Below are positions 7,409-52,197 of a stretch of DNA of 64,000 bases, in pieces (position 1 is the stretch's first letter; each line of letters opens with the position of its first letter). This DNA is from Geodermatophilus obscurus DSM 43160 (GTDB lineage Bacteria > Actinomycetota > Actinomycetes > Mycobacteriales > Geodermatophilaceae): contig NC_013757.1 of assembly GCF_000025345.1 (NCBI RefSeq), positions 5,146,001-5,210,000 of the forward strand, read 5' to 3'. A program made the translations under genes and the position numbers. The notes beneath the pieces were generated by a model. It was not told the DNA's origin. It did no database searches and saw nothing but the letters and a program-made list of their open reading frames with translations.

Positions 7409-7475
7409 AGGAGGACCCCGTCCTCCCCACCCTTCGCAAGCTCAGGGCGGGACCGGGACGGGGCCACCGTCCCGG
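7409..7475. repeat. family A palindrome (GGACCCCGTCC type)
   Basis: After the CoxE-like fragment, GGACCCCGTCCTCCCC (7413-7428) pairs with the right arm GGGACGGGGCC (7454-7464) around the central word CGCAAGCTCAGGG. It sits between convergent genes and could end both transcripts. Confidence 0.75.
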
Positions 7476-7485
7476 GGCACTCCGC

Positions 7486-8454
7486 TCAGCGACCGCTCCA
7501 CGTGGGCGGGCCGCCCGGGCCGCCACCGCCCCACGCCGGCACGCCGCCGGTCGGTGGTCCGGCCATGGTCACGATGCGGTCCAGCTCCTCGAGGTCGGCG
7601 GGCCGGAGCGCCACCTCGCTCGCCTCGAGGAGCTCCTCCAGCTGAGCCACCGAGGTCGCGCTCGGGATGACGAGCACGTTCGGCGAGCGGACGAGCAGCC
7701 ACGCGATGGCCACCTGCACCGGGCTCGCCCCCACCCGCTGCGCGACGGTGTCCAGCACCGCCGACTGCTCCGGCGTCATCTCGCCCATGGGGAAGAACGA
7801 CGTGTAGGAGATCCCCTCCAGCGCCGTGTAGGCGATCCCGTCCCGGGCCAGCTCCTCGACCAGGTCGTCGTCGGTGCGGTGGATCAGGTTGTAGTGGTTC
7901 TGCACGCAGGCGAGGGGGGCGATGCTCCGCGCCTCGGCGACCTGCCGGCCGGTGATGTGGCTGACCCCGAGCTGGCGGACCAGCCCCTCCTGCTGCAGCT
8001 GGGCCAGCGCCTCGAGCGGCTCGCCGAGGGAGCGCTCCGCGGGCTCCCCCAGGCCCGGCATCCGCAGGTTGGCGACGTGCAGCGCGTCCAGCCCGAGGTG
8101 CTCCAGGTCCTCCTCCACCGACCGGCGCAGCCCGTCAGGCGTCAGCGCCTCGTCCCAGCCGCCCTCCGGCGTCCGGCGGGCGCCGACCCGGGTGACGATG
8201 ACCAGGTCCTCGGGATAGGGGTCCAGCGCCTCGCGGATCAGGTCGTTCACCACGTGCGGGCCGTAGAGGCCGCTGGTGTCGACGTGGTCCACCCCCAGCT
8301 CCACGGCCCGGTGCAGGACGGCGAGCGCGGCCTCCCGATCGGCCGGTGGCCCGGTGACCCGGGGTCCGGTGAGTTTCATGCCGCCGTAGCCCATGCGGTG
8401 CACGGTCCGGTTGCCGAGGGTGACCCGTCCGGATCCCGTCGCGGTGGTCGTCAT
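7486..8454 (-). CDS. aldo/keto reductase with altered catalytic residues
   Basis: A 322-residue TIM-barrel aldo/keto reductase. VDHVDTSGLYGPH gives the catalytic Asp59 and Tyr64. The usual catalytic Lys position reads VTRVGARR, so it is Arg89, and the usual His position reads VANLR, so it is Asn129. Asn at the latter is seen in some subfamilies (VVNLR-type); Arg for Lys is less usual and may change or slow hydride transfer. The NADPH end is recognisable (LVIPSATSVAQLEELLEA). The start is the ATG at 8454. It is a single gene, convergent with the CoxE-like fragment and divided from it by a palindrome. A substrate cannot be inferred. Confidence 0.88.
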   Translation of the reverse strand: MTTTATGSGRVTLGNRTVHRMGYGGMKLTGPRVTGPPADREAALAVLHRAVELGVDHVDTSGLYGPHVVNDLIREALDPYPEDLVIVTRVGARRTPEGGWDEALTPDGLRRSVEEDLEHLGLDALHVANLRMPGLGEPAERSLGEPLEALAQLQQEGLVRQLGVSHITGRQVAEARSIAPLACVQNHYNLIHRTDDDLVEELARDGIAYTALEGISYTSFFPMGEMTPEQSAVLDTVAQRVGASPVQVAIAWLLVRSPNVLVIPSATSVAQLEELLEASEVALRPADLEELDRIVTMAGPPTGGVPAWGGGGPGGPPTWSGR

Positions 8455-8594
8455 GCCGGGCGAAGCTAGGGCCGGGCGGACCCCGGCCGACACCTCCGAT
8501 CGGCAGAGCGCGGCGCGGCCGTCACAGGCCGTGCGGTCGACGCCAGCGTGTCATTGACCGCCTCCAGCGTGTCGTGGGCGTGTCGCCGCGGCGC

Positions 8595-9263
8595 CTAGAT
8601 CAGCCCGAGTTTCGAGCCGGCGTAGACGGCCTCGGCGCGGCGGGACACCGCCATTTTCCGCATGACGTTTCCGACGTGGAACTTCGCCGTCGTCGCCGAG
8701 ATGTACAGCTCCCGGCCGATCGCCTCGTTGGACAGCCCGCGCGCCAGCAGGGTGAGCACCTCGCGCTCGCGGGCGGTCAGGTCCGGCCCGGTGGCCGCCA
8801 CGGGGGACGGCGCGGGTGCGGCCAGCGAGCGCACCACCATCGTCGCGCTGTGGCTGTCGAAGGCGCTCTCCCCGCGGCGCACCGCCCGGATCGCGGCGAC
8901 CAGCGCCACGGCGTCGACGTCCTTGAGCACGTAGCCGCGGGCGCCGCGCCGGATGGCCTCGAGCACCAGCTGCTGGTCGAGGAAGGTCGTCACCACCAGG
9001 ACGCCGGGCGCGGGGGTCGTGGCGGTGAGCTGGCCGCACAGGGTCAGGCCGGCGACGTCGGAGCCGGCCGAGAGCTTGAGGTCGAGCAGCACGATGTGCG
9101 GGCGGCTGGCGGCCACCAGGTCCAGCGCCTCGCCCGCGGACGCCGCCTCGCCGACCACCTCGATGTCGGGTTCGCGCTCCAGGATCGAGCGCAGCCCCTG
9201 CCGGACGATCGCGTGGTCGTCGACGATGACCAGCCGGATGGTCCCAGTGGCGCTCTCATCCAT
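8595..9263 (-). CDS. LuxR/NarL-family response regulator (MnoR/MadR-like)
   Basis: A 222-residue regulator. The receiver has the acidic pair at D15-D16, the phospho-acceptor D61 in LLDLK and the conserved Lys in GYVLKD; the C-terminal LuxR helix-turn-helix is LTAREREVLTLLARGLSNEAI. Its ATG at 9263 overlaps the stop of the histidine kinase gene by 8 nt, so the pair is cotranscribed and translationally coupled. Both follow the iron-type alcohol dehydrogenase. In Mycobacterium smegmatis a two-component system (MnoSR) beside the mno methanol dehydrogenase controls methanol oxidation, and this has the same arrangement. The specific name is inference. Confidence 0.92.
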   Translation of the reverse strand: MDESATGTIRLVIVDDHAIVRQGLRSILEREPDIEVVGEAASAGEALDLVAASRPHIVLLDLKLSAGSDVAGLTLCGQLTATTPAPGVLVVTTFLDQQLVLEAIRRGARGYVLKDVDAVALVAAIRAVRRGESAFDSHSATMVVRSLAAPAPSPVAATGPDLTAREREVLTLLARGLSNEAIGRELYISATTAKFHVGNVMRKMAVSRRAEAVYAGSKLGLI

Positions 9264-10575: not shown

Positions 10576-10585
10576 CAGCGGCGGG

Positions 10586-11818: not shown

Positions 11819-11887
11819 CGTCGCCCCGCTCGGGGAGCGCACGCGGCAGCGGACACGAGGACCTCCGGGGGTCTCGGCGGTGCGGTC

Positions 11888-11915
11888 AGACTAACCCGAC
11901 CGTGACCGCTGTCAC
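11888..11915 (-). promoter_or_regulatory. promoter and overlapping dyad of the alcohol dehydrogenase/two-component operon
   Basis: On the minus strand GTGACA (11915-11910) and TAGTCT (11893-11888) are 16 nt apart. The -35 lies inside the dyad GTGAC-AGCG-GTCAC (11902-11915). The 5' leader would be about 65-70 nt before the ATG at 11818. A dyad over the -35 suits a response-regulator or repressor site. The regulator encoded at 8595-9263 is an obvious candidate, but binding is inference. Confidence 0.45.
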
Positions 11916-11944
11916 ACACTTGGATCGCGCACGACCTTCCGCCC

Positions 11945-15152: not shown

Positions 15153-16280
15153 GTGCCCGTCAACACCCGCGGCGCGATCCTGCGCTCCGCCCCCGGCAAG
15201 TACGAGGTCGTGGACCTGGTCGCCGACGACCCGCGCCAGGGCGAACTCCAGGTCAAGCTGGCGGCGTCCGGCATGTGCCACTCGGACGACCACATCGCCA
15301 CCGGTGACATGCCGGTCGGCCACTACCCCTTCCTGGGCGGCCACGAGGGCGCCGGCGTCGTGACGGCGGTCGGTCCCGGCACCCCCGGCTTCAAGGAGGG
15401 CGACCACGTCGTCTTCTCGTTCCTCCCCGGCTGCGGCCGGTGCCGCTACTGCGCCAACGGTCAGCAGTACATCTGCGACTCGGGCGCCAACCTGCTGATC
15501 GGCTCGCGCTGGGACGACGCGGAGAGCTTCCGCTTCAGCACCACGGACGGCACGCCGGTCGGCCAGATGTGCGGCCTGGGCACCTTCGCCGAGGTGACCA
15601 CGGTCGACGTCCGGTCGACGGTGAAGATCCCCGACGACATCCCGCTGGACGTGGCCTGCCTCGTCGGCTGCGGCGTCGGCACCGGCTGGGGGACGGCGGT
15701 GCAGGCCGGCGAGGTCAAGGCCGGTGACACGGTGATCGTCATGGGCATCGGCGGCATCGGCATCAACGCGGTCCAGGGTGCCGCGCACGCCGGGGCGAGC
15801 CACGTGATCGCGGTCGACCCGGTGGCGTTCAAGCGGGAGAAGGCCATGGAGCTGGGCGCGACGCACGCCTTCGAGAGCATCGAGGAGGCCGCCGAGTTCA
15901 GCCGCAGCGTCACCAACGGCCAGGGTGCCGACAAGGCACTGGTCACCGTGGGCATCCTGAAGGGCGAGCACGTCGCCCAGGCGTTCGAGGCGATCGGCAA
16001 GGGAGGGCGGGTGGTGATCACCGGCCTCGGCGACCTCACCGACGTGGGCATCCCGATCAACCCCAGCATGCTGGCGTTGTTCACCAAGGAGATCCGCGGC
16101 GCCCTGTTCGGCGACCAGAACCCCAGCGCCGACATGCTGAAGATGCTGCGGCTCTACCAGGAGGGGAAGATCAAGCTCGACGAGCTGATCACCAAGCGGT
16201 ACAAGCTCGACGACATCCAGCAGGGCTACGAGGACATGCACGCCGGCAAGAACATCCGCGGCGTCATCGTCTACGACTGA
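15153..16280 (+). CDS. NDMA-dependent zinc alcohol dehydrogenase, mycofactocin-associated
   Basis: A 375-residue zinc-type alcohol dehydrogenase. Catalytic zinc ligands are Cys42 and the GHE pair around His64-Glu65. The structural zinc site is Cys94, 97, 100 and 108 (CGRCRYC plus CDS). The Rossmann motif is VMGIGGIGINAVQ. The insert LIGSRWDDAESFRFSTTDGT is typical of the actinobacterial NDMA-dependent branch, in which nicotinamide stays bound and mycofactocin is the electron acceptor. GAGGAGG lies 6 nt before the GTG at 15153. It sits about 9 kb from mftABC on the other strand and ends in a nested palindrome. Primary alcohols or aldehydes are likely substrates. Confidence 0.93.
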   Translation: MPVNTRGAILRSAPGKYEVVDLVADDPRQGELQVKLAASGMCHSDDHIATGDMPVGHYPFLGGHEGAGVVTAVGPGTPGFKEGDHVVFSFLPGCGRCRYCANGQQYICDSGANLLIGSRWDDAESFRFSTTDGTPVGQMCGLGTFAEVTTVDVRSTVKIPDDIPLDVACLVGCGVGTGWGTAVQAGEVKAGDTVIVMGIGGIGINAVQGAAHAGASHVIAVDPVAFKREKAMELGATHAFESIEEAAEFSRSVTNGQGADKALVTVGILKGEHVAQAFEAIGKGGRVVITGLGDLTDVGIPINPSMLALFTKEIRGALFGDQNPSADMLKMLRLYQEGKIKLDELITKRYKLDDIQQGYEDMHAGKNIRGVIVYD

Positions 16281-16443
16281 CGGGGGACCACCCTCCCCCA
16301 CGCCTCGTAGAAGGGCCCCGTCCTCCCCACCCCTCGAAAGAGGACCCCCTGCTCCCCGTCGCTCGCAAGCTCGCGGCGGGACCCTGCAGGGGGCCGGCGG
16401 GACCCGGGACGGGGCCGGCGGGGCCCTGGAGGGTGGCCGTTCC
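16281..16443. repeat. nested triple family A palindrome
   Basis: Three left arms occur in order (CCACCCTCCCC near 16288, GCCCCGTCCTCCCC near 16315, GACCCCCTGCTCCCC near 16343). After the centre CTCGCAAGCTCGCGG come three right arms in reverse order (GACCCTGCAGGGGGCC to 16395, GACCCGGGACGGGGCC to 16416, GCCCTGGAGGGTGGCC to 16438). Each right arm carries the complement of its own left word. This is one element inside another inside a third, at the end of the NDMA-dehydrogenase gene. Confidence 0.8.
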
Positions 16444-16512
16444 ACCACGTCACCGGGGCCGGGGCGCTCCTCGCCGAGGGGCGCCCCGGTCGCGCGTCTC
16501 GCGAGGAGCACC

Positions 16513-20161: not shown

Positions 20162-21301
20162 TCAGGCACGGGAGATGACCCCCGCGAGCTCCTGGAACGC
20201 CGCCAGGCTGTGCCCGGCGACGAAGTGGTCGACCGACGGCAGCGCCGCCTGCATGCCGCCGGTGAGCGGCTCGTAGCCCTCGCGGCCCTTGTGCGGGTTG
20301 ACCCACACGACCGCGTGCGCCAGCCGCTGCAGCCGGGCCATCTGCTCGGCGAGCACGTCGGTGCCGCCGCGCTCCCAACCGTCGCTGCACACGACGACGA
20401 CCGCGCCGCGGGCGGTGCCGCGCTGCCCCCACCGGTCGAGGAACGCCTTGAGCACCTCACCGAGCCGGGTGCCGCCGGACCAGTCCGGGATCGCCGAGCC
20501 GCTGGCGGCCAGCGCCTTGTCGGGGTCGCGCATCCGCAGCTCCCGGGTGACCCGGGTCAGCCGCGTGCCGACGGTGAAGACCTCCGTCGCGGCCGGGCGC
20601 GCCCGGACGGCGGCGTGCGCGAAGCGCAGCAGCGAGTCGGCGTAGGGACTCATCGAGCCGGACACGTCGACGAGCAGGACGACGCGGCGCGGGCGGGGCC
20701 GGGCACGCCGGTGCAGCAGCCGGGTGACCTCGCCGCCGTCGTGCAGGGCGTGGCGGACCGTGCGGGAGGCGTGGACGGCGCCGTGCGGGCTGGGCCGCCG
20801 GCGGCGCGAGAGCCGCATCGGCGCGGCCGGGACCAGCAGCGCGAACAGCCGGCGCAGCTGCTCGCGCTCGGCGCCGGTCAACTCCGAGACGTCGCGGTGG
20901 CGCAGCACCTCGTCGGCGCTGGCCTGCCCGGCGAGGTCCGGCGGCGAGTCGCCGTCCCCCTCGCCGTCTCCGGGGTCCATCGGGGCCGTGGTGAGCGTCC
21001 GCTGCCGCTGCTGGGCCGCGGGCGGCACCGGCCGCGGCGACTCGCCACCGAAGTACGCGGCGAACGCGGCGTCGTAGCGCTCCAGGTCGTCCGGCCCGGC
21101 ACAGAGGGTCAGCCGGCCGCTCCAGTAGACGGCGGTGGCGTCGAGGACGTCGAGCGCGGCGACGGCGGCCAGCATCGCCTCGACCCGGTCCGGGGAGGCG
21201 CCCACCCCAGCGACCCGGAGGGTGCGGGCGAAGCCCAGCACGGTGTCGACGACGTCACGGGGTGGACGGGCGGCCTCCTCCCGTGGCCCCCTGCCGGGCA
21301 C
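20162..21301 (-). CDS. CoxE-like VWA-domain protein
   Basis: About 379 residues. The N-terminal part begins DVVDTVLGFARTLRVAGV, as in CoxE relatives. A glycine/proline linker follows, then a VWA domain with MIDAS DVSGSM near residue 210 and the late motifs DWSGGTRLGEVLKAFL, CSDGWERGG and AHAVVWVNPHKG. CoxE acts with the CoxD ATPase in building the CuSMo site of CO dehydrogenase; related pairs serve other Mo hydroxylases. The start is uncertain: GTG at 21301 or 21241. An in-frame extension to 21442 is built of repeat sequence and is unlikely. Family A repeats fill the gap to the upstream ATPase. Confidence 0.85.
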   Translation of the reverse strand: MPGRGPREEAARPPRDVVDTVLGFARTLRVAGVGASPDRVEAMLAAVAALDVLDATAVYWSGRLTLCAGPDDLERYDAAFAAYFGGESPRPVPPAAQQRQRTLTTAPMDPGDGEGDGDSPPDLAGQASADEVLRHRDVSELTGAEREQLRRLFALLVPAAPMRLSRRRRPSPHGAVHASRTVRHALHDGGEVTRLLHRRARPRPRRVVLLVDVSGSMSPYADSLLRFAHAAVRARPAATEVFTVGTRLTRVTRELRMRDPDKALAASGSAIPDWSGGTRLGEVLKAFLDRWGQRGTARGAVVVVCSDGWERGGTDVLAEQMARLQRLAHAVVWVNPHKGREGYEPLTGGMQAALPSVDHFVAGHSLAAFQELAGVISRA

Positions 21302-21431
21302 CGCCCCGAGCTCGCGAGGGGTGGGGGGCAGGGGGTTCTTCGGCCGAGCCTGCGAGGGGTGGGGAGAACGGGCGGCCTCGTCCCGGGTCCCGCCCCGAGC
21401 CTGCGAGGGGTGGGGAGGACGAGGTCCTTTC
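21285..21431. repeat. tandem family A palindromes between coxD-like and coxE-like genes
   Basis: Two or more units lie side by side. One is GGCCCCCTGCCGGGCACCG ... GAGGGGTGGGGGGCAGGGGG (about 21288-21335). A second is GCCTCGTCCCGGGTCCCG ... GGGTGGGGAGGACGAGGTCC (about 21373-21427). They contain the central words CGAGCTCGCGAG and CGAGCCTGCGAG. The block interrupts an apparent operon, so it could reduce transcription into coxE and xdhC. Confidence 0.72.
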
Positions 21432-22349
21432 TCAGCCGCCACCGAAGAGCGCCCCCCGGGCCAGGGCGTGCACGCGGTCGGTGTCCTCCCGGTACTTGAG
21501 GACCGCGCCCAGCGTCCGCGCGGCGACGTCGGGGTCCAGCTCGCGGGCGCCGAGGGTGTACAGCGCGGTCGCCCAGTCCATCGCCTCGGCGACCCCGGGC
21601 GGCTTGAGCAGGTCCAGGGTGCGCAGCTTCGCCGTCGCGCGGGCCACCTCGCGGGCCAGCTGCTCGGTCACGTCGGGCAGCCGGCGACGCAGGATCGCCA
21701 CTTCGCGGTCGAAGTCCGGGTGCTGCAGCCAGTGGTAGAGGCAGCGCCGCTTGAGGGCGTCGTGCACCTCGCGGGTGCGGTTGGAGGTCAGCACCACCAG
21801 CGGCGGGGTGGTGGCGCGGATGGTGCCGAGCTCGGGGATGGAGATGGTGAAGTCGGACAGGACCTCCAGCAGGAAGGCCTCGAACTCGTCGTCGGCGCGG
21901 TCGACCTCGTCGACCAGCAGCACGCTCGGGGAGTCCTCCAGCGCCTGCAGCAGCGGCCGGGCCAGCAGGAACCGACGGTCGTAGAGCGAGGCCTCCAGCG
22001 TCTCGGTGTCGCCGGTGGCGTGCGCGGCCTCGGCGGCGCGCAGGTGCAGCAGCTGCCGGCCGAAGTCCCAGTCGTAGAGCGCCTGGCTGGCCTCCAGGCC
22101 CTCGTAGCACTGCAGCCGGTAGATCGGCCGGCCGGTGACCCGGGCCAGCGCCTGGGCCAGCGCGGTCTTGCCGACGCCGGCCTCGCCCTCGAGGAACAGC
22201 GGGCGGTGCATGGCCAGCGCCAGGTACGCGGCCGTCGCCAGGCCCTCGTCGGGCAGGTAACCGGTCGCCTCGAGGGCCGCGGCCAGCTCGTCGGGTCCGT
22301 TGATCCCGCCGTCCGCGCCGGGCAACGGCCGCACCGTGGTCTCGCTCAC
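21432..22349 (-). CDS. CoxD-like MoxR-family AAA+ ATPase
   Basis: A 305-residue ATPase. Walker A GEAGVGKT is at 55-62, Walker B is VLLVDEVDRADDEFEAFLL, and the substrate-type motif YRLQCYEGLEASQALYDWDF marks the CoxD branch of MoxR proteins. LTSNRTREVHDALKRRCLYHW holds sensor-1 and the arginine finger. CoxD is a chaperone for copper-sulfur loading of CO-dehydrogenase-type enzymes; close homologues work on other molybdenum hydroxylases. GTG at 22349 is chosen; the 43 in-frame codons before it are arginine/proline-rich and without a ribosome site. It is the first gene of the CoxD-CoxE-XdhC set. Confidence 0.92.
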   Translation of the reverse strand: MSETTVRPLPGADGGINGPDELAAALEATGYLPDEGLATAAYLALAMHRPLFLEGEAGVGKTALAQALARVTGRPIYRLQCYEGLEASQALYDWDFGRQLLHLRAAEAAHATGDTETLEASLYDRRFLLARPLLQALEDSPSVLLVDEVDRADDEFEAFLLEVLSDFTISIPELGTIRATTPPLVVLTSNRTREVHDALKRRCLYHWLQHPDFDREVAILRRRLPDVTEQLAREVARATAKLRTLDLLKPPGVAEAMDWATALYTLGARELDPDVAARTLGAVLKYREDTDRVHALARGALFGGG

Positions 22350-23925: not shown

Positions 23926-24735
23926 GTGCCTCCCCGCTCGCCGTACGACAACCTGGTGCACCCGCGCACCGTCAAGAAGCCCAGCCCCCAGGTCGAGGCC
24001 CAGCGCGACCTGGTCGTCGAGGACCCGAGCTCGGGGTTCGTGGGCGCCGTGGTGCGCTGCGAGAAGGCCGTCGTCCACCTCGAGGACCGGTTCGGGAAGG
24101 TGCGCGCCTACCCGCTCGGCCCCGGGTTCTGGGTCGACGGCCGCCCGGTCGTCCTCGTGCGCCCGAGGCCGCAGGCGCCGGTGGCCCCGACCCGCAGCGC
24201 GTCCGGCTCGACCTACGTGGCCGGCGCCCGAGCCCGGGTCGCCCGCGAGGGCCGGATCTACGTCGAGGGCAAGCACGACGCCGAGCTCGTCGAGAAGGTC
24301 TGGGGCCACGACCTGCGCATCGAGGGCGTCGTCGTGGAGCCGCTGCACGGCGTCGACGACCTGCCCGGCATCGTGCGCGACTTCCGCCCGGCGTCCGGAC
24401 GGCGGCTCGGGGTGCTGGTCGACCACCTGGTGACCGGCTCCAAGGAGTCCCGCATCGCCGCTCAGGTGACCGGGGACCACGCCCTGGTGGTCGGGCACCC
24501 GTTCATCGACATCTGGCAGGCCGTCAAGCCGTCGGTCGTCGGGATCAGGGCGTGGCCGGTGGTGCCCAAGGGCGAGTCCTGGAAGGACGGCGTCTGCCGC
24601 CGGCTGGGCTGGGAGGACGACACCGGCTACGTCTGGGCGCAGCGGATCCTCGCCCGGGTGCGCACCTGGACCGACCTGGAGCCGGCGCTGATCGGCCGGG
24701 TCGAAGAGCTCATCGACTTCGTGACGACGGACTGA
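23926..24735 (+). CDS. DUF3097 family protein
   Basis: A 269-residue actinobacterial protein of the DUF3097 family. The N-terminus YDNLVHPRTVKKPSPQVEAQ and the body segments SGFVGAVVRCEKAVVHLEDR, GPGFWVDGRPVVL, REGRIYVEGKHDAELVEKVWG and LGVLVDHLVTGSKESRIAAQV are highly typical. The EGKHDAELVEKVWG and DHLVTGSKESRIA segments look like a Toprim-like acidic fold, suggesting nucleic-acid or nucleotide chemistry, but no function is proven. GTG at 23926 is chosen by homology; the GGGAGG before it is only one nucleotide away, so the real start could differ by a few codons. It ends in a family A palindrome. Confidence 0.88.
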   Translation: MPPRSPYDNLVHPRTVKKPSPQVEAQRDLVVEDPSSGFVGAVVRCEKAVVHLEDRFGKVRAYPLGPGFWVDGRPVVLVRPRPQAPVAPTRSASGSTYVAGARARVAREGRIYVEGKHDAELVEKVWGHDLRIEGVVVEPLHGVDDLPGIVRDFRPASGRRLGVLVDHLVTGSKESRIAAQVTGDHALVVGHPFIDIWQAVKPSVVGIRAWPVVPKGESWKDGVCRRLGWEDDTGYVWAQRILARVRTWTDLEPALIGRVEELIDFVTTD

Positions 24736-24809
24736 GGAAGGACCCCCGCCCCCCACCGTCGCAGGACCCTGCAGGGGGCCGCACGAGCGGTGGAGGACGG
24801 GGTCGTCCC
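24736..24809. repeat. family A palindrome between convergent genes
   Basis: An outer pair GGACCCCCGCCCCCC (24742-24756) against GGAGGACGGGGTCGTCC (about 24792-24808) encloses GGACCCTGCAGGGGGCC (24763-24780), itself partly self-complementary. It divides the convergent DUF3097 and aldo/keto reductase genes. Confidence 0.65.
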
Positions 24810-30384: not shown

Positions 30385-30633
30385 ATGGCAGCGAGCGTCA
30401 CCGTCCGGTACTTCGCCGGGGCCCGCGCGGCCGCCGGCGTGGAGACCGAGACCCGGGACGCCGGCACGCTCGACGAGCTCGTCGGCCAGATCGTCGAGAC
30501 GCACGGGGAGCGGCTGGAGAAGGTGCTCACCGCCTGCTCGTTCCTCGTCGACGGCACCCAGACCCGGGACCGGTCGCTGGCGCTGGCGCCCGGCGCGGTC
30601 GTCGACGTGCTGCCGCCCTTCGCCGGAGGCTGA
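30385..30633 (+). CDS. moaD: molybdopterin synthase sulfur carrier MoaD
   Basis: An 82-residue ubiquitin-fold protein ending in FAGG, the C-terminal Gly-Gly that is adenylated and thiocarboxylated before sulfur transfer to precursor Z. The beta-grasp pattern VTVRYFAGARAAAGVETETR and VVDVLPPFAGG is typical. ATG at 30385 follows the moaA stop by 2 nt, so it is translationally coupled. Its partner subunit MoaE is at 32678-33088 on the other strand. A family A palindrome follows directly. Confidence 0.93.
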   Translation: MAASVTVRYFAGARAAAGVETETRDAGTLDELVGQIVETHGERLEKVLTACSFLVDGTQTRDRSLALAPGAVVDVLPPFAGG

Positions 30634-30709
30634 AGAAGAATCCCGACCCCGGCCCCGGCCCGAGGCTCGCCCCGAGCTTGCGAGGGTGAGGAGGACGGGG
30701 TCCTTCTCC
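30634..30709. repeat. family A palindrome after moaD
   Basis: GAATCCCGACCCCGGCC (30640-30656) and GAGGACGGGGTCCTTC (about 30691-30706) flank CGAGGCTCGCCCCGAGCTTGCGAGG, which holds the family's central word. The pairing is weaker than in other copies. It probably ends the moaA-moaD transcript. Confidence 0.6.
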
Positions 30710-30756
30710 TGCCCGGGGGCCGCCCGGCCGTCTCGCCGTCGGCGGAGAATGGGCCC

Positions 30757-36673: not shown

Positions 36674-37330
36674 ATGCCCCTGTCCAGCAGCAACCAGCTG
36701 TCCGGCACGGTCACCGCGGTCACGCCCGGGTCGGTGATGGCGACGGTCGAGGTCGAGGTCGGCGGTCCGGGGATGACCGCGTCGATCACCGAGGAGGCGG
36801 TGGAGGACCTCGGGCCGTCGGTGGGCTCGGCGGTCGTCGTCCTGGTGGAGTCGACCGAGGTGGTGCTCGCCGTCGAGGACCGGAAGAGGACTCCCTCGCC
36901 CCCACCCCCGCGCTCCGCTCGGGCGGGACCCTGCGAGGGCCGCCGTCAGGGGACGTCGACGCTGACCTGGGTGGCCTTGACCGTGGCCACGGCCCGCACG
37001 CCGACGTCCAGGCCGAGCTCGTCGGCCGCCTCGCGCGACATCAGCGAGACCAGACGGAACGGCCCCGCCTGGATCTCCACCTGCGCCATCACCGTGTCGC
37101 GGACCACGCGGGTGACGATGCCGGTCAGCCGGTTGCGGGCCGAGGAGCCGCGGGTGGTGCCCGGCTCGGGAGCCTCGTGCAGCTGCGTGGCCAGCCGGGC
37201 GAGGTCGGCGCCGTCGACGTGCGCAGGACCGCCGCCGTCGCGGGAGGCCGGCAACCGGCCGCTGTCGATCCAGCGGCGCACCGTGTCGTCGCTGACGCCG
37301 AGCAGGGCCGCGGCCTCGGCGATCCGGTAG
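36674..37330 (+). CDS. Mop molybdate-binding protein with abnormal C-terminal run-on
   Basis: Residues 1-70 are a complete Mop (molbindin) domain: SSNQLSGTVTAVTPGSVMATV, MTASITEEAVEDLGPSVGS and VVVLVESTEVVLAVED. A normal protein would stop here (about 36883). Instead the frame runs into a family A repeat at 36886 and stays open to 37330, adding about 148 residues antisense to the TOBE/HTH gene, with no resemblance to a domain. Either the palindrome removed the stop codon and the protein is now extended, or the sequence has an error near 36884. GAGGAG precedes the ATG. It stores or buffers molybdate beside modABC. Confidence 0.75.
   Translation: MPLSSSNQLSGTVTAVTPGSVMATVEVEVGGPGMTASITEEAVEDLGPSVGSAVVVLVESTEVVLAVEDRKRTPSPPPPRSARAGPCEGRRQGTSTLTWVALTVATARTPTSRPSSSAASRDISETRRNGPAWISTCAITVSRTTRVTMPVSRLRAEEPRVVPGSGASCSCVASRARSAPSTCAGPPPSREAGNRPLSIQRRTVSSLTPSRAAASAIR
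36886..36946. repeat. family A palindrome at the end of the Mop domain
   Basis: GGACTCCCTCGCCCCCACC (36891-36909) pairs with GGACCCTGCGAGGGCC (36928-36943) around CGCGCTCCGCTCGGGCG. It falls where the Mop stop codon should be, and the frame reads through it. Confidence 0.7.
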
Positions 37331-37341: not shown

Positions 37342-37675
37342 CGGAGCAGGCTAAAGAAAGGACCCCGTCCTCCCCGCCCTTCGCAGGCTCAGGGCGGGAC
37401 CCGGGACGGGGCCGCCCCTGCCCCCCACCGCTCGCAGGCTCAGGGCAGGACCCGGGACGGGGCCGCCGTTCCAGCACGCGGCGGGACCCTGCAGGGGCCG
37501 CCGTCCCGCGCGGGTCCACAGTCCTCCTGGATCCTCCGCGTGCTCGGAGTCCACGCTGCGATCCGGGCCGCCGGCCGTCGGTGGACCGGCTCCAGCGGGG
37601 TAGGACACCCGGACCCGGGACGAGGTGGGGTGCAGCCGGCGCCCGATCGCCCGCCGGGGAGAGCAGGAGGGCCGG
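37342..37675. other. 334-nt gap holding tandem family A repeats (37352-37515)
   Basis: It contains at least three repeat units: GGACCCCGTCCTCCCC ... GGGACCCGGGACGGGGCC (37358-37412), a CCCCTGCCCCCCACC ... CAGGACCCGGGACGGGGCC unit (37414-37466), and a shorter GGGACCCTGCAGGGGCC arm (about 37485-37500). The central word CGCAGGCTCAGGG occurs twice. The remaining 160 nt before the GGDEF/EAL gene has no assigned promoter. Confidence 0.7.
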
Positions 37676-40217: not shown

Positions 40218-41918
40218 GTGCCCCGCAAGAAGCAGGACCCCGCAGGGGCGTCCGCCTCCGTCCGCACCCGCCGCATCCGGGAGACTGCGCGAGAGCTGCT
40301 CGGCTACGAGGACTTCCGGCCGGGCCAGGAGGAGGCGATGGAGTCCGTGGTCAGCGGCCAGGACACCCTGGCGGTGCTGCCCTCGGGCGCCGGGAAGTCC
40401 GCCGTCTACCAGATCGCCGGGCAGCTGGTCGACGGTCCGGTGCTCGTCGTCTCCCCCCTCATCGCGCTGCAGCGCGACCAGGTCGGCCGGCTCGACGATC
40501 TCGACGGACTCGACGGCCGGGCCGCCCAGCTGAACTCCGCGCTCTCGGTCGGCGACCAGCGCGCCGCGCTCGAAGGACTCGCGGACGGAACGGTCCGCCA
40601 CCTCTTCCTCGCTCCCGAGCAGCTGACCAAGCCCGAGGTCGTGGAGGCCATCGCGAAGGCGCAGCCGGCGCTGTTCGTCGTCGACGAGGCCCACTGCGTC
40701 TCCGCCTGGGGTCACGACTTCCGCCCCGACTACCTGCGCCTCGGCGGGGTGATCGAGCAGCTCGGTCACCCGACGGTGCTCGCCCTCACCGCCACCGCCG
40801 CGCCCCCGGTGCGCGCGGAGATCGTCGAGCGCCTGGGCATGCACGACGCCCGGGTCGTCGTGGCCGGGTTCGACCGGCCGGAGATCCGGCTGGAGGTCGA
40901 GCAGCACGCCGACGCCCACGGCAAGGACCAGGCCGTGCTCGACCGGGTCACCGAGCTGATCGGTGACGGGCGGCTCCCCGGGATCGTCTACAGCGCCACC
41001 CGCAAGGGCACCGAGGGGATCTCCGCCGAGCTCGCCGAGCGCGGGCTGCGGGTGCGGCCGTACCACGCCGGGCTGAAGAAGTCCGAGCGCGAGGACACCC
41101 AGCGCGCGTTCATGGACGACGAGCTGGACGTCGTCGTCGCCACGACCGCCTTCGGGATGGGCATCGACAAGCCCGACACCCGCTTCGTCGTCCACGCCGA
41201 GCCCGCCGACTCCGTCGACAGCTACTACCAGGAGATCGGCCGCGCCGGCCGGGACGGGCAGCCCGCGCTCGCCCTGCTCGTGTACCGCCAGGAGGACCTC
41301 GGCCTGCGGAAGTTCTTCGCCGCCGGCATCCCGCCGGAGGAGGAGCTGCAGCAGGTCGCCGGCCTGGTCGCCGCCGCGGAGGCCGCCGGCATCGAGGACG
41401 GCGTCGACGTCAGGCAGCTGCGCGAGGAGACCGGCCGGCCCGCCACCCCGCTGGCCCGCGACCTCAACCTGCTCGAGCAGGTGTCGGCGGTCGCGCTCGA
41501 CGAGGAGGGCGCCGCCCACCCCGTGGAGGGGGCACCCAGCCCCGGCGACGCCGCGGCCGCCGCCCGCGAGCTGGCCGAGCACCACGAGCAGGTCGACCAG
41601 AGCCGGGTGGAGATGATGCGCGGCTACGCCGACACCACCGAGTGCCGGCGGCAGTTCCTGCTCGGTTACTTCGGCGAGCAGCTGGAGCAGCCGTGCGGGA
41701 ACTGCGACAACTGCGACGCCGGCCTGTCCCAGGAGCAGCCCGACGACGACGAGACCCCGTTCCCGGCGCAGACCCCGGTGCAGCACACCGAGTGGGGGCC
41801 CGGCGTGGTCATGCGCGTCGAGGACGACCGGCTCGTCGTCCTGTTCGAGGAGGTCGGCTACAAGACGCTGGCGCTGGCCGCCGTCCTGGACAACGACTTG
41901 CTCGAGCGCCGCGACTGA
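40218..41918 (+). CDS. ATP-dependent DNA helicase RecQ
   Basis: About 566 residues. FRPGQEEAM is motif 0, LPSGAGKSAVYQ motif I, VVDEAHCVSAWGHDFRPDY motif II plus the RecQ aromatic loop, ALTATAAPPV motif III, TTAFGMGIDKPDTRFVVH motif V and YYQEIGRAGRDG motif VI. The C-terminal zinc site is ECRRQFLLGYFGE plus CGNCDNC. The last 60 residues carry a short beta domain (HTEWGPGVVMRVEDDRLVVL). It unwinds DNA 3' to 5' in repair. Start is uncertain: GTG at 40218 or 40212, or an ATG at 40038 that would add 60 low-complexity residues and overlap the palindromes. It ends in a nested repeat. Confidence 0.9.
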   Translation: MPRKKQDPAGASASVRTRRIRETARELLGYEDFRPGQEEAMESVVSGQDTLAVLPSGAGKSAVYQIAGQLVDGPVLVVSPLIALQRDQVGRLDDLDGLDGRAAQLNSALSVGDQRAALEGLADGTVRHLFLAPEQLTKPEVVEAIAKAQPALFVVDEAHCVSAWGHDFRPDYLRLGGVIEQLGHPTVLALTATAAPPVRAEIVERLGMHDARVVVAGFDRPEIRLEVEQHADAHGKDQAVLDRVTELIGDGRLPGIVYSATRKGTEGISAELAERGLRVRPYHAGLKKSEREDTQRAFMDDELDVVVATTAFGMGIDKPDTRFVVHAEPADSVDSYYQEIGRAGRDGQPALALLVYRQEDLGLRKFFAAGIPPEEELQQVAGLVAAAEAAGIEDGVDVRQLREETGRPATPLARDLNLLEQVSAVALDEEGAAHPVEGAPSPGDAAAAARELAEHHEQVDQSRVEMMRGYADTTECRRQFLLGYFGEQLEQPCGNCDNCDAGLSQEQPDDDETPFPAQTPVQHTEWGPGVVMRVEDDRLVVLFEEVGYKTLALAAVLDNDLLERRD

Positions 41919-42050
41919 AGAAGGACCCCGTCCTCCCCTCGAAGGATCCCCTTGCCCCCCGCCACTCGCCACTCGCAGGCTCGCGGCGGGACCCTGCAAG
42001 GGGGCCGTCGGAGCTCAGGGCGGGACCCGGGACGGGGCCACGGCGGGACG
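41919..42050. repeat. nested double family A palindrome after recQ
   Basis: Outer left GGACCCCGTCCTCCCC (41922-41937), inner left GGATCCCCTTGCCCCCC (41943-41959), centre CACTCGCAGGCTCGCGG, inner right GGGACCCTGCAAGGGGGCC (41988-42006), outer right GGGACCCGGGACGGGGCC (42022-42039). As at 16281-16443, each right arm carries the complement of its own left word (CCCCTTGC with GCAAGGGG), so changes are compensated. Confidence 0.8.
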
Positions 42051-44013: not shown

Positions 44014-44463
44014 ATGTCCGCAACATCCGGCAACACCGGCACCGGCCGCGGCGCCATGACCTGGCCCCAGATGCTGGCGCTCGCCTTCGGTGCGATCTAC
44101 CTCCTGGTCGGAGTCGTCGGCTTCTTCATCACCGGTTTCGGGAACTTCTTCGCCCACGACACCAACCAGACGCTGCTGGGCTTCGAGATCAACGGCATGC
44201 ACAACGTCGTCCACATCGTCGTCGGTGTGGCCGGCCTGCTGCTGGGCCGCACCTTGGCCGGCGCGCGCACGTACGGCTGGCTGCTGGCCATCGGCTACGG
44301 CGCCGCGTTCGTCTACGGGCTGATCGCGATCAACAAGCCGTGGGACTTCCTCAGCATCAACGCCGCTGACAACGTCCTGCACCTCCTCACCGCGATCGTC
44401 GGTCTGGCCATCGCGCTGGGCCCGGTGCGCAACGCCGTCACCCACCGCGGTACGCGCGTCTGA
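44014..44463 (+). CDS. DUF4383 four-helix membrane protein
   Basis: A 149-residue integral membrane protein with four hydrophobic segments (MLALAFGAIYLLVGVVGFFI, VVHIVVGVAGLLLGRTLA, YGWLLAIGYGAAFVYGLIAI, NVLHLLTAIVGLAIALGP). The motif LLGFEINGMHNVVHIVVG is the signature of DUF4383. The family is common in actinobacteria, often stress-induced, without a known role. ATG at 44014 after GGGAGGA. The 234-nt upstream region carries a strong hairpin. A family A repeat follows. Confidence 0.9.
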   Translation: MSATSGNTGTGRGAMTWPQMLALAFGAIYLLVGVVGFFITGFGNFFAHDTNQTLLGFEINGMHNVVHIVVGVAGLLLGRTLAGARTYGWLLAIGYGAAFVYGLIAINKPWDFLSINAADNVLHLLTAIVGLAIALGPVRNAVTHRGTRV

Positions 44464-44580
44464 GAGAGGACCCCGTCCTCCTCACCGCTCGCAAGCTCGC
44501 GGCGAGCCTCTGGACGGGGCCGGGACCCTGCAGAGGGGCCACCCGGAGGCCGGGTCCCGCACGGGGCCCGGCCTCCGGCG
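44464..44580. repeat. family A palindromes after the DUF4383 gene
   Basis: GAGGACCCCGTCCTCCTC (44465-44482) against CTCTGGACGGGGCC (44508-44521) around CTCGCAAGCTCGCGG; then GACCCTGCAGAGGGGCC and GCCGGGTCCCGCACGGGGCCCGGC (about 44553-44577), itself a hairpin. The rest of the gap to 44729 shows no gene or clear promoter. Confidence 0.65.
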
Positions 44581-46948: not shown

Positions 46949-47174
46949 GCCCGACCTCCGCTCGGTCCGCCTCCAGGGGGCTCCAGCGTGGTGCGCGTCA
47001 CCCGGGCGCGCAACGGGAGGGCCCACGGTCACGACCGGGGACGACGGCGTTCACCCGTCGTCTCCCCGGACGTCCTCGGGGGTGACGACGGGGGGACGGG
47101 TGGGAGCGGGGGAAGAGACGGCCCCCCAGGCGTTCGTCGCCGCACGGTCGGAGGCCCGGGCCCGGGCGCGCCGG

Positions 47175-47369: not shown

Positions 47370-47404
47370 GCGGCCGACCCTAGGCGGCCCCGTCCCGGCG
47401 CCGT

Positions 47405-47525
47405 CGCGAGCCCGGCGAGGTGCTGGGACAGCCCCCTGCAGGGTCCCGCCGTGAGCCTGCGAGGTGCTGGAACGGCCACCCTTCAGGGCCGCGCCGAGCC
47501 TGCGAGGCGTGGGGGGAAGGGTGGT
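47405..47525. repeat. family A repeat fragments between the membrane-protein and LCP genes
   Basis: GCCCCCTGCAGGGTCCCGCC (47415-47434), GGCCACCCTTCAGGGCCGCG (47475-47494) and GGGGGGAAGGGTGGTCC (about 47511-47527) surround two central words GAGCCTGCGAGG. Left and right arms of different word types (CCCTGCAGG and CACCCTTC) are present, as in the nested copies, but one element looks incomplete. Confidence 0.65.
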
Positions 47526-47531
47526 CCTGCT

Positions 47532-49103
47532 TCAGTCGGCCCGGTTCGGCGGCTCGCCGGCGGCGCGCGCCTCGGCGGCCCGGACGGGGTCGTAGGCGCA
47601 GGCGTCGGTCACGTCGGTCGCCGCCACGGGGTCCTCCGCGGGCTCGCCGGGCGCCGGGGTCGCCGAGCCGGGAGCCGGGGTGGGGGCGCCGTCCGCGGCG
47701 TCGTCGTCCGCCGGGACCGGGGAGATGGCGTCCTCGACGATCGTGCGCATCCGGTCGTAGTCGGGGTAGGCCGGGTCGATCACGGTGTTGTCGAAGACGA
47801 CGCTGCGCACCTCCGAGTTCTTGACCAGGAACGCCAGGTCGACGAAGTCGTCGAGGGCCGAGCGCGGGATGTCGGTGCTCACGATGTCCTGCGTGGTGGC
47901 GGCCAGCTCCTGGTAGCGCCGCAGCAGGGTGACCGGGTCGGCGGCGTCGATGATCGCGCTGATCGTGCAGCGCTGGCGGGCCATCCGGTCGTAGTCGGTC
48001 AGCCCGTAGCGGCCGCGGGCGAACTGCAGCGCCGTCCAGCCGTCCATGTGCTGGGCCGGTCCCGGCTCGATGTAGTCGTCCGGCAGTTCCTGGCCGGAGA
48101 TGCCGTTGATCGGCACGTAGTAGTTGACGTTCACGGTGATGCCGCCGAGGGCGTCGACCAACCGGGCGAAGCCGTCGAGGTTGACCAGCACGAAGTAGTC
48201 GATGTCCAGGCCCAACGCCTCACCGACGCCGAGCTTGAGGAAGTCCGCGCCCGGGTCGTCGGTGCGCCCGAGGATGTCGGGGTACCAGGCCGGTCCGGTG
48301 CGGTAGACGGCGTTGAGCAGGCTGTCGGCCTCGTTGGCGCCCTCGAAGCCGTCCGGGTAGACCTCGGCCAGCGGGCTGTCCGAGGGGAAGGGCAGGTCCT
48401 GGAGGTTGCGCGGCAGGCTGAACAGCATCGTGTCGCCTGTCTCGGTGTCGATGCTGGCCACGATGACCGTGTCGGTGCGCACGCCCTCGCGCCCCTCTCC
48501 ACCGTCCCCGCCGAGCAGGAGCACGTTGACCCGCTCCTGGTCGCCGAAGGGGTCGGGGTGGTCGCCGTCGTCCACCGTCGCCGACTCGCGGTCGGCGAAG
48601 AGGCCGTCGAGGAGCCCCTGCTGGGCGAGTGCCACCTGGCCGACGGTGACCACCGGGTACGCGATGCCGGCGACCAGCGCGGCGACGAGGAGGCCGCCCA
48701 GCAGGTGCTTGCCGCGGGAGGTCCGGGGTGGCAACAGCGCGCGGTAGCCCGCCACGACGACGGCGACCCAGAGCAACCCGAGGACGAGGACACCGCCGAG
48801 GACCCAGGTCAGCGCGGTCGGGTCGACCGCGACCCGCGCCGCGGTCCGCTGTCCCACGGTGGCCAGCCAGGCGGCGCCGCCGACGAGCGCGAGGAAGGTC
48901 ACGAGGACCAGGGCGCCGAGCCGGCGTCGCCCGGCCGCGAGGAACGCCGTCCCCGGGAGGACGGCGTTCAGCACGGTCAGGCCCAGCGCCGCGGGGAAGC
49001 CGCGGCCGCGGGCGTGCGACCGGGACCGCGGGCCCTCCGGTGGCGGGGGCAGGGGCCGCGACGGGCCGATGGGACGCGTCACGTCCCACTCGTGCTCGCT
49101 CAC
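47532..49103 (-). CDS. LytR-CpsA-Psr (LCP) family cell-wall transferase
   Basis: A 523-residue membrane protein. A cytosolic Pro/Arg-rich N-terminus (1-35) is followed by three or four membrane segments (about 40-180) and an extracytoplasmic LCP domain (about 200-390) with RTDTVIVASIDTETGDTMLF, SLPRNL and FARGRYGLTDYDRMARQR, the arginines that hold the pyrophosphate-lipid donor. The tail has a Pro/Ala/Asp linker and CAYDPVRAAEARAAGE. LCP enzymes attach teichoic acids, arabinogalactan or capsules to peptidoglycan. GTG at 49103 with GAGGAG. The extra N-terminal membrane segments are unusual, as most LCP proteins have one. Confidence 0.92.
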   Translation of the reverse strand: MSEHEWDVTRPIGPSRPLPPPPEGPRSRSHARGRGFPAALGLTVLNAVLPGTAFLAAGRRRLGALVLVTFLALVGGAAWLATVGQRTAARVAVDPTALTWVLGGVLVLGLLWVAVVVAGYRALLPPRTSRGKHLLGGLLVAALVAGIAYPVVTVGQVALAQQGLLDGLFADRESATVDDGDHPDPFGDQERVNVLLLGGDGGEGREGVRTDTVIVASIDTETGDTMLFSLPRNLQDLPFPSDSPLAEVYPDGFEGANEADSLLNAVYRTGPAWYPDILGRTDDPGADFLKLGVGEALGLDIDYFVLVNLDGFARLVDALGGITVNVNYYVPINGISGQELPDDYIEPGPAQHMDGWTALQFARGRYGLTDYDRMARQRCTISAIIDAADPVTLLRRYQELAATTQDIVSTDIPRSALDDFVDLAFLVKNSEVRSVVFDNTVIDPAYPDYDRMRTIVEDAISPVPADDDAADGAPTPAPGSATPAPGEPAEDPVAATDVTDACAYDPVRAAEARAAGEPPNRAD

Positions 49104-49297
49104 GTGGTCTCCTCGCTGTCCTCGACCGGGCCCGTCTCGCGGCCCATGCTCCCACTGACCGCGTCGCCGTTCCGGCGTTCCGCCGCCCACCTGCGCGAAC
49201 ACCCGTCCAGGTACCCCGCCGGTGGGCGGACTCACCCCCGACCGGGTGCCCGGAGCCGGGACGCCGCACGCGGAGGCATTCCGTAAGGTCGGTCCCC

Positions 49298-50092: not shown

Positions 50093-50103
50093 CTGGCCAG
50101 CGC

Positions 50104-50850
50104 TCAGCCGCCGAGGACGCCGTCGACCACGGTCGCGACGCCCCCGACCAGCGCCAGGGACAGCGCGGCGGTGCGCGCGCGCGTCGGTGACACGTGCGCG
50201 GCCAGCGCGGTGCCGGCCACGAGGCCGACGCCCAGGGCGGCGGCCGCGACTGCCCAGTCCGCGACGGGCAGGGACGGCAGGCCCTTGGCCGCCACCGTGG
50301 CCGACCCGACAACGGTGAAGCACAGCTGCGCCGTCGCCGCGAACGCGCGCTGCGGCCACCGCGTGGCGACCGCGTAAACCGTCAGCGCGGGCCCCCCGAC
50401 CCCTGCGGTCGCGTTCATGAAGCCCGACGCGGCCCCGGCGAGCAGCGCGGGCGCCGTCCCCGTCCCGGACGCGGGGCCCGCGCCGGTCCGCCGGCCGGCC
50501 GCGAGGACGGCGAGCAGCGCCACGACGACGCAGCCGCCCACGAGGACCTGCAGGACGGCGGGTGCCGTGTGGCGGGCGACCCAGGCACCCGGGACGACCG
50601 CCACCAGTGCGGGCGCGGAGAGCAGCAGGCCCCGGCGCAGCTCCACGTCCCGCCGCACCTGCACCAGGACCAGCACCGAGGCCGCGACCCCCAGCACGTT
50701 GACCACGAGGACCCCGGCGAAGGGCCCGAGCAGCAGCACCAGGAACGGGGCGGCGACCAGGGCGAAACCGAGCCCGGTGATGCGCTGGGTCCCGGCGCCG
50801 ACCGCCACGGCGGCCGCAAGTCCGAGCGCGGGCAGCCAGCCTGCGTCCAC
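50104..50850 (-). CDS. TSUP (TauE/SafE) family membrane permease
   Basis: A 248-residue permease with about eight hydrophobic segments (LGLAAAVAVGAGTQRITGLGF, LVAAPFLVLLLGPFAGVLVV, VLQVLVGGCVVVALLAVLAA). GFMNATAGVGGPALTVYAV is the TSUP motif. Family members export or import sulfite, sulfoacetate or other organosulfur anions. GTG at 50850 is preferred; the longer ATG-type start at 50940 adds a Pro/Arg-rich tail not expected before the first helix. No sulfur metabolism genes are adjacent. Confidence 0.85.
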   Translation of the reverse strand: MDAGWLPALGLAAAVAVGAGTQRITGLGFALVAAPFLVLLLGPFAGVLVVNVLGVAASVLVLVQVRRDVELRRGLLLSAPALVAVVPGAWVARHTAPAVLQVLVGGCVVVALLAVLAAGRRTGAGPASGTGTAPALLAGAASGFMNATAGVGGPALTVYAVATRWPQRAFAATAQLCFTVVGSATVAAKGLPSLPVADWAVAAAALGVGLVAGTALAAHVSPTRARTAALSLALVGGVATVVDGVLGG

Positions 50851-51020
50851 GTCAGCGGGCCCGGCCCGGGCGGGCCGCCGCCGGGTCGGGGGCGGGGACG
50901 CGGGGACGGCGAGCGGGCACCCACCGACCCTGACCGACACCTGCGCCGACGGCGACCGGGGGAACGCGACGAGCCGCTGACGAGGGCATCAGCGGGCCGC
51001 CGCCGGTGTTGTACCCGGCG

Positions 51021-52142
51021 ATGACCGCGCAGCTCGCACCGCTCGTCCCCGCCGCTCCCCCGCCTACCACTCCCCCGTCCACCCGCCTCTGGACGCCGTC
51101 GCGCGTCCTGGTCACCCGCTCGGCCGCGGAGCGGCCGCACGGGCAGCGCATCCTGGCCCGGCTCGAGGCCGCCGGGGTGTCCGACGTCGAGCTGCTGCCC
51201 GGCGACCGGCTGCCCAACCTGCGCGGGGACGGCGACCGCGCGGCGTTCATGCGCGCCAAGGACACCCTCGCCGTCGTCGTCCCGCCGCCGTCCAAGCGCA
51301 AGCTGCAGCCGATCCCGCCGTCCGCCGACTGGCGCGTCGACCTGGCCGAGGGCTGCCCCGCGCACTGCCAGTACTGCTACCTCGCCGGCTCCCTGGGCGG
51401 CCCGCCGATCACCCGCGTGTGGGCCGACCTCGACGAGGTGCTCGACGAGCTCGACGCCTACGTCGGCCGAGGCGCCATAACCTCCGGCACGCTCGAGCGC
51501 GGCGGGGAGGGGACGACGTTCGAGGCCTCCTGCTACACCGACCCGCTGGCCATCGAGCACCTGACCGGCGGTCTGTCGCGGATGGTCGAGCACTTCGGCA
51601 CACACGACTGGCCCGGCCCGGTGCAGCTGCGGGCGACCACCAAGTTCGACGGCGTCGCCGGCCTGCTGGACCTGCCGCACGGCGGCCGCACCCGGCTGCG
51701 GTTCTCGGTCAACGCGACGTCGGTCGACCGGCGCTTCGAGGGCGCCACGGCGAAGGTGCCCGCGCGGCTGCGGGCGCTGTCGGCGATCGCGGCGGCCGGC
51801 TACCCGGTCGGCCTGACCATCGCGCCGATCATGCCGGTCGAGGGGTGGCGGGAGGAGTACGGCGCCCTGCTGGACGCCGTGGCCGCCGCGCTGCCGGCCG
51901 GCGCCGACCTCACCGTCGAGTGCATCACGCACCGGTTCACGCCCGGCAGCAAGGAGACGCTGCTGGACTGGTACCCGCGCACGAAGCTCGACATGGACGA
52001 GGCCCGCCGCACCACCAAGCGCGGGAGGTACGGCTCGGTCAAGCACGTCTACCCGAAGGAGACGATGGCCGAGCTGCGCGGCTGGTTCGAGGCCGCGCTG
52101 GCCGAGCGGCTGCCCCGGGCCCAGCTCCTGTACTGGACCTAG
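51021..52142 (+). CDS. spore photoproduct lyase-family radical SAM protein
   Basis: A 373-residue radical SAM enzyme. AEGCPAHCQYCYLAGSLGG carries the C-x3-C-x2-C cluster; TFEASCYTDPLAIEHLTG and LRFSVNATSVDRRFEG are typical of the SplB-like group, and LDWYPRTKLDMDEARRTTKRG lies near the C-terminus. In spore-formers SplB repairs UV spore photoproduct in DNA. This organism is not expected to make endospores, so the substrate of the actinobacterial branch is open; UV or desiccation damage is a reasonable guess. ATG at 51021. A family A palindrome follows the stop. Confidence 0.88.
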   Translation: MTAQLAPLVPAAPPPTTPPSTRLWTPSRVLVTRSAAERPHGQRILARLEAAGVSDVELLPGDRLPNLRGDGDRAAFMRAKDTLAVVVPPPSKRKLQPIPPSADWRVDLAEGCPAHCQYCYLAGSLGGPPITRVWADLDEVLDELDAYVGRGAITSGTLERGGEGTTFEASCYTDPLAIEHLTGGLSRMVEHFGTHDWPGPVQLRATTKFDGVAGLLDLPHGGRTRLRFSVNATSVDRRFEGATAKVPARLRALSAIAAAGYPVGLTIAPIMPVEGWREEYGALLDAVAAALPAGADLTVECITHRFTPGSKETLLDWYPRTKLDMDEARRTTKRGRYGSVKHVYPKETMAELRGWFEAALAERLPRAQLLYWT

Positions 52143-52150
52143 GGCAGCCG

Positions 52151-52197
52151 CCGCGGCCGTGGCCCCGTCCCGAGACTCGGAACGGGGTCCTCTCTCA
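52151..52197. repeat. family A palindrome between convergent genes
   Basis: GTGGCCCCGTCCCGAGAC (52159-52176) pairs with CGGAACGGGGTCC (52178-52190). It is the shortest copy, with almost no central loop, and makes a strong hairpin between the SplB-like and formaldehyde dehydrogenase genes. Confidence 0.7.

Follow-up and report, generated by a model that had tools for sequence, protein, structure and literature searches.

A family of palindromic units directly after TGA stop codons in Geodermatophilaceae, a probable non-autonomous mobile element

The 64-kb window analyzed here (positions 5,146,001 to 5,210,000 of contig NC_013757.1, Geodermatophilus obscurus DSM 43160) carries dispersed palindromes at gene ends that belong to a family of units of about 57 nt, each a two-part hairpin whose arms are variable yet complementary. 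The family is probably a non-autonomous mobile palindromic element of the Geodermatophilaceae, similar to repetitive extragenic palindromes (REPs) and miniature inverted-repeat transposable elements (MITEs) and inserted beside stop codons by a putative enzyme. Observed are a high copy number, arms that are complementary beyond chance, a near-exact offset from the stop, units nested in one another, and slots that are filled, empty or differently filled from one congener to the next. The nesting, the near-exact TGA adjacency and the between-species turnover are additions to a preceding sequence-only reading of the window. Among the papers listed in literature searches, none describes these or like repeats judging by its title, and the available passages of PMC9686282, PMC2817692, PMC5378121 and PMC3035280 do not mention the repeats; within the window, no Rfam family matched above its gathering score.

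The simple unit has the layout RGAAGGA-CCCCGTCC-TCCCCA-CCCT-TCGCAAGCTC-AGGG-CGGGACCC-GGGACGGGGCC. The main types of arm word are CCCCGTCC, CCCnCTGC and CACCCTTC, and one further type has the right half GAGCCTCTGG. To measure pairing, units were picked by the centre alone, which gave 54 matches, two of them discarded by eye as not belonging to the family; in the remaining 52, the longest Watson-Crick run averaged 7.25 within units against 5.59 between units, and the within-unit value was reached by none of 10,000 permutations. In an alignment of 44 of the 52 (A1; three failed trimming and five odd ones were dropped), variation with pairing is present in both outer arms and in a second, loop-side stem: 79 cells show two-sided changes (shuffled alignments, 30.2; slid partners, 4-23), and such changes occur in 12 of the 18 pairs (7.5 on average after shuffling). 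Held-out units from relatives, with the offsets set beforehand from A1 (112 units, 50 distinct arm pairs), gave 5.74 of 8 paired positions within units against 4.30 when permuted (permuted maximum, 4.98). Many held-out units were fetched by a pattern of which CCCCGTCC is a fixed part; with this left arm removed (n=39), the values were 5.54 against 3.96, with a maximum of 4.72. Arm pairing is beyond chance, and the compensated arms described in the sequence-only reading are real by permutation, slide and held-out controls. The statement that the arms always pair is slightly too strong: most units do, with 8/8 pairs in 104 and at least 7/8 in 132 of 185 centre-defined units from the genome and its relatives, 85 of which have CCCCGTCC. 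The sequence-only reading took constant pairing to imply that structure is selected or that units are copied as hairpins; of this, what stands is that arm complementarity is clearly kept. Mismatches in the arms are more often AC/CA (22) than GU (6); the p-value of 0.004 is rough, given the relatedness of the copies and a register error in at least one. Inner-stem mismatches comprise 25 AC/CA, 16 of which fall at one position, and 12 GU. Selection on the sense RNA through a wobble excess was rejected, as the trend is the opposite, and the pattern, read as G-T on the antisense strand, weakly fits a bottom-strand hairpin.

Position relative to stop codons was analyzed with genes predicted by a simple codon-usage caller, not taken from annotation, and with left-end motifs that differ between tests (strict, broader or looser, and one for slot occupancy across congeners). 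The unit set comprises the best 103 of 113 matches to a covariance model (E up to 0.016), 44 of which were used to build that model. Of these, 96 lie between predicted genes, five inside predicted genes and two at locus edges. Seventy of the 96 intergenic units follow a gene in their own direction, namely 41 of 58 in tandem gaps and all 29 in convergent gaps, where a unit on either strand qualifies; only nine are in divergent gaps, though these make up 30% of the length of gaps of at least 50 nt. The gene-end location proposed in the sequence-only reading is supported. Of 755 predicted stops, 50 have the strict motif starting at exactly +2 and 11 more at -2 to +3, and a second small peak at +27/28 corresponds to nested inner units. 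The broader motif at +2 is found after 63 of 673 TGA stops of the sampled G. obscurus DNA but after none of 77 TAG stops, and with relatives included after 148 of 1511 against 2 of 180 (p=1e-5). Among stops with a free gap, the strict motif follows 50 of 512 TGA, 0 of 63 TAG and 0 of 5 TAA codons, while among non-stop intergenic triplets it follows 4 of 2045 TGA (two of the four are units by eye) and 0 of 650 TAG. Within convergent gaps, 27 of 172 stop TGAs are filled by the strict motif against 0 of 262 non-stop TGAs; for the looser motif the counts are 31 of 172 and 5 of 262. The strict match at +2 is repeated after 20 of 377 stops in congeners and 48 of 569 in other contigs (sampled contigs L069-L148 were chosen because each holds a unit); in the latter, the broader motif follows 9 of 151 stops in Blastococcus and 12 of 81 in Modestobacter.

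A C precedes 51 of 61 filled stops against 415 of 694 others. The two bases after the stop are purine-rich at 145 filled sites, unlike those at 836 empty sites; they look like part of the element, and the unit abuts the stop. The possibility that the element carries its own TGA was rejected: most non-stop copies, nested or inverted, lack TGA, and empty sites keep it, since 15 of 16 empty orthologous places end in TGA and one in TAG (by eye; remnant, inverted and unclear places excluded). A preference for (C)TGA at the DNA level would explain both the choice of TGA over TAG and the C bias, but does not account for the lack of units at other TGAs of the same gaps. Either copies elsewhere are removed or never retained by selection, or the insertion step detects genuine stops.

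Ten of the eleven sites noticed in the window match the covariance model at E<=0.01 (at 7410, 16339, 21285/21374, 24737, 30651, 36885, 37357/37415, 41942, 44465 and 47475; the units at 7410, 16339, 21374 and 37357 are among the 44 used to build it), and the eleventh, at 52.2 kb, was read by eye. Their reported location just past a stop codon is borne out at nine of the eleven, where the unit or its outer left half directly follows a predicted stop; the sites at 36.9 and 37.4 kb have no predicted stop directly before them. Two units each are found at 21.3-21.4 kb and 37.4 kb, and three are nested at 16.3 kb. The simplest case is the plus-strand unit at 7409..7465, with arms CCCCGTCC/GGACGGGG, directly after the stop at 7406-7408. 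The three-layer nest (16281..16454, plus strand, directly after the stop at 16278-16280) has an outer unit CACCCTCC/GGAGGGTG, a middle unit CCCCGTCC/GGACGGGG (16308..16416, plus) and an innermost unit CCCCCTGC/GCAGGGGG (16339..16395, plus), the last being the model match, followed by the tail GTTCCACCACGTCACC. A simple minus-strand unit CCTCGTCC/GGACGAGG (21374..21431) follows the minus-strand stop at 21432, with a second unit CCCCCTGC/GCAGGGGG on the same strand (21285..21341). Between convergent genes, a short plus-strand unit with imperfect arms (24736..24780; E=0.0027) follows the stop at 24733-24735. After the stop at 30631-30633, a probable diverged outer element (30634..30721, plus) encloses an inverted unit (30651..30706, minus) that matches the model. 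The weak unit at 36884..36941 (plus; E=0.0075) and the unit between divergent genes at 37355..37413 (plus), which adjoins a partial unit without a left end (37414..37464, plus), are the ones without a preceding predicted stop. A nested pair (41919..42039, plus; outer CCCCGTCC/GGACGGGG, inner CCCCTTGC/GCAAGGGG) follows the stop at 41916-41918, and a unit CCCCGTCC/GGACGGGG with the centre CTCGCAAGCTCGCGG (44464..44521, plus), which has an extra right half-module (44522..44540, plus), follows that at 44461-44463. On the minus strand, a unit CACCCTTC/GAAGGGTG (47474..47531) follows the stop at 47532 and is trailed by two tail and right half-modules (GTTCCAGCACCTCGC...; 47386..47473, minus), and a short unit read by eye (52161..52194) follows the stop at 52195. 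Such half-modules, in which the tail GTTCCAGCACnTC(A)CC is fused to a right half and the left arm is missing, at times repeatedly, are also seen downstream of L036:3452, L037:9089 and L021:16423; a tail starting with GTTCC lies at most 2 nt after the unit in 9 of the 103 units.

Inner units replace the loop of an outer unit in the sense orientation in nine cases (of 11 returned by script) and in the antisense orientation in six (of 8), as judged by eye, the script having returned some spurious cases and overlooked GAGCCTC-type nests. Comparison of congeners, also by eye, reveals turnover of the same slots. In the sister species G050, about 97% identical at two genes, 10 of the 11 window sites could be compared: the unit is kept at 24.7, 36.9, 37.4 and 47.5 kb, a different occupant is present at 16.3, 30.6 and 44.5 kb, the 52.2-kb site probably has the same outer unit holding another nested in it, and the sites at 7.4 and 41.9 kb are empty. 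The slot at 16.28 kb, with three layers in G. obscurus, has single units in G050, G056 and G054, two layers in G062, another type in G053 and none in G061 and G058, while a downstream GGGGCG.../...CGCCCC hairpin is kept in all eight genomes. At 44.46 kb, units of several types occur, including an inverted copy in G050, and the slot is empty or near-empty in G048 (tail remnant), G053 and G059. In relatives that lack a unit at either slot, the stop is in the same position and the downstream hairpin is still present. The strong hairpins concerned, at 16455-16493 and 44543-44578 of the window, are kept across congeners and are probably native terminators. The 41.9-kb nest is common to G. obscurus and G056, with inner arms that differ by a compensated pair (CCCCTTGC/GCAAGGGG against CCCCGTGC/GCACGGGG in G056). 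Slots filled in G. obscurus are more often filled in congeners (14 of 36 against 16 of 252 others, p=7e-7), a lower count because the motif used misses the CACCC and CCTCC types; the left arm is the same in only 3 of the 14 slots filled in both.

The covariance model gave its 113 matches at E<=1 in 864 kb of G. obscurus, and the best 103 of them extrapolate by proportion to about 600-630 units per 5.3-Mb genome. Genome-wide, the centre motif occurs 371 times against 39 for the reversed control, and a whole-genome model search returned at least 156 units with 150 of 15,033 candidates scored, so that the proposed dispersed family indeed has a high copy number. A link of copy density to GC content was rejected as weak (rho 0.26, p=0.10), and 12 of 40 stretches of the genome contain no unit. 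Five of six 20-kb stretches sampled at 2.39-3.0 Mb (L018, L019, L020, L038, L039 and L040) have none, and this is possibly a variable or recently gained region. In 112 Geodermatophilaceae genomes scanned for the right-half motif with three mismatches allowed, 255 copies were found in G. obscurus (control, 1), 10-315 in 25 congeners, 2-125 in genera g2, g3, g4 and g9-g12, and 0-9, near control, in g5-g8. In those of 298 genomes of the order that lie outside the family, counts were control-like and did not exceed 10 matches in any genome (10 in G183; control, 3); the motif is above background only in Geodermatophilaceae among the genomes searched. Of 118 stretches found in named contigs, the 80 listed are from Geodermatophilus, Blastococcus, Modestobacter and a single "Geodermatophilaceae bacterium", apart from one on a contig with the title "UNVERIFIED_ORG: Bacillus sp. 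AZ43" (L104, SPQJ01000011.1); this contig carries the element and is probably a mislabelled Geodermatophilaceae genome.

In the favoured explanation, a unit folding as a two-part hairpin would be copied by a putative enzyme and inserted directly 3' of native stops, with (C)TGA preferred and RGAAGGA, its purine-rich left end, adjoining the stop; alternatively it would land, in either orientation, in an existing copy's loop or arm. Copies in the post-stop slot would persist because this slot tolerates the unit, and would be overwritten by newer copies or lost. The nesting and turnover suggest transposition; the hairpin, perhaps as single-stranded DNA, may be what the enzyme recognises, and this recognition would keep the arms complementary.

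Several results weigh against this explanation. The Y1_Tnp profile, which matched in 5 of 14 control genomes, gave no match at E<=0.001 in the genome of G. obscurus or in 108 genomes of the family, so that the RAYT-like (REP-associated tyrosine transposase) or IS200/IS605-like driver suggested earlier finds no support; this search yielded no transposase for the element, other transposase families not having been searched. RVT_1 domains are present in 48 of the 108 genomes, including that of G. obscurus, but in none of the element-rich G044, G056 and G057, and a reverse transcriptase was rejected as the driver since its presence does not track copy number (the sole RVT_1 domain found in G. obscurus lies at G000:C1:1836374-1836961). 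No element with halves split around an open reading frame was seen in about 1.86 Mb sampled with exact 8-nt arms only, and an autonomous split-half copy was rejected, with one spurious place (two rows) and none real. No clean target-site duplication was seen, the flanks of the empty sites being too diverged for one to be delimited. Because G. obscurus and G056 share the 41.9-kb nest, the empty site of G050 is more likely a loss than a place never filled. Shared slot filling is as compatible with common ancestry or a function favoured by the host as with hot spots, and sense orientation at gene ends would follow from host selection too.

These last points bear on the main rival, an unlikely one, in which the units are hairpins of the 3' untranslated region, terminators or protectors of mRNA 3' ends, that spread once and were kept by the host for the benefit of a stem right behind UGA in termination, ribosome recycling or blocking exonucleases. 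The near-exact +2 offset at real TGA stops, with none at non-stop TGAs of convergent gaps for the strict motif, the re-filling of slots across congeners and the arm covariation all agree with such a role, as do the higher frequency of filled stops in convergent (34 of 270) than in tandem (27 of 481) settings and the 24.7-kb unit, which occupies the place of an ordinary terminator-like hairpin in G061. Yet the U-tract is absent (none of the 103 units has more than three T in the next 10 nt), a conserved hairpin stands further downstream at two loci (16.46 and 44.54 kb), the sense strand shows no preference for wobble pairs, and nested or inverted copies and empty sites at about 97% gene identity are unexpected for a needed terminator. 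Insertion coupled to translation termination, by which a mobile hairpin would insert just behind the UGA stop of a translated gene while sparing the same triplet elsewhere in the gap, through a novel enzyme or an RNA-level route, is quite unlikely. It is distinctly improbable that palindrome self-correction, that is, template switching at quasi-palindromes, and not selection on structure, keeps the arms complementary: the many perfect units despite many arm words and the compensated change in the 41.9-kb nest are in its favour, but it leaves dispersal, nesting and the stop-codon offset unexplained and would act beside another mechanism. Movement as REP elements by a RAYT (Y1) transposase is highly improbable, given the negative Y1_Tnp search and the lack of a constant tag at gene-end copies, which have TGA and variable, mostly purine bases instead, although the unit is a high-copy intergenic palindrome and GTAG and GGAG each precede 10 of 125 non-stop left ends. 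Some non-stop copies are adjoined by CTAA, CTAG or CCCTA (window 37355 and ~47370-47386, L028 ~6240, and L036 ~4640 on the minus strand), which can resemble an actinobacterial -10 box (TAGGGT) on the opposite strand. Chance complementarity in GC-rich intergenic DNA, for which the genome's GC content of about 75% and the modest fold z-scores of single window hairpins (-2.99 to +0.23; seven folded, the 52.2-kb sequence being incomplete) might speak, is already refuted by the permutation, slide and motif controls and by the order-wide background.

The family is a new variant of dispersed bacterial palindromes, working like REPs and MITEs. REPs and bacterial interspersed mosaic elements (BIMEs) with RAYTs (GTAG and CGTC superfamilies; PMC3733652) are short palindromes, intergenic and in high copy, whose stems vary and which lie near gene ends or overlap them. 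CGTC REPs are without a dedicated transposase as well, and according to that paper GTAG REPs often supply a TAG stop codon. The Geodermatophilaceae unit is likewise a high-copy extragenic palindrome with variable stems near gene ends, but it is about 57 nt long, has a two-part stem with bulges and is nested in itself, and the stop beside it is TGA and native; it is not filed under REP/RAYT because neither a constant GTAG or CGTC tag at gene-end copies nor a Y1 enzyme was found in the family. With MITEs it shares small size, non-coding high-copy inverted repeats, nesting and presence or absence between relatives, but its arms vary between copies, and no parent transposon (about 1.86 Mb sampled, exact 8-nt arms) or target-site duplication was found. 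Mycobacterial interspersed repetitive units are actinobacterial repeats too and resemble the family in being inserted at stop codons, in stop/start overlaps of DTGA type, but they are tandem minisatellites that lack a long stem, whereas the present units are gene-end hairpins preferring C before TGA. Integron attC sites are also bulged hairpins with copy-specific complementary arms at the 3' end of a gene; unlike these, the units are dispersed after chromosomal genes and, as far as seen, not arranged in cassette arrays.

In the G. obscurus DNA sampled, a strong hairpin stands at a near-fixed distance from roughly every tenth TGA stop, so that hundreds of genes have their 3' ends shaped by these repeats. 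The family lends itself to natural tests of two questions: how palindromic repeats of bacteria can spread in the absence of a RAYT, and whether stop codons can serve a mobile element as a safe harbour, through targeting or through selection.

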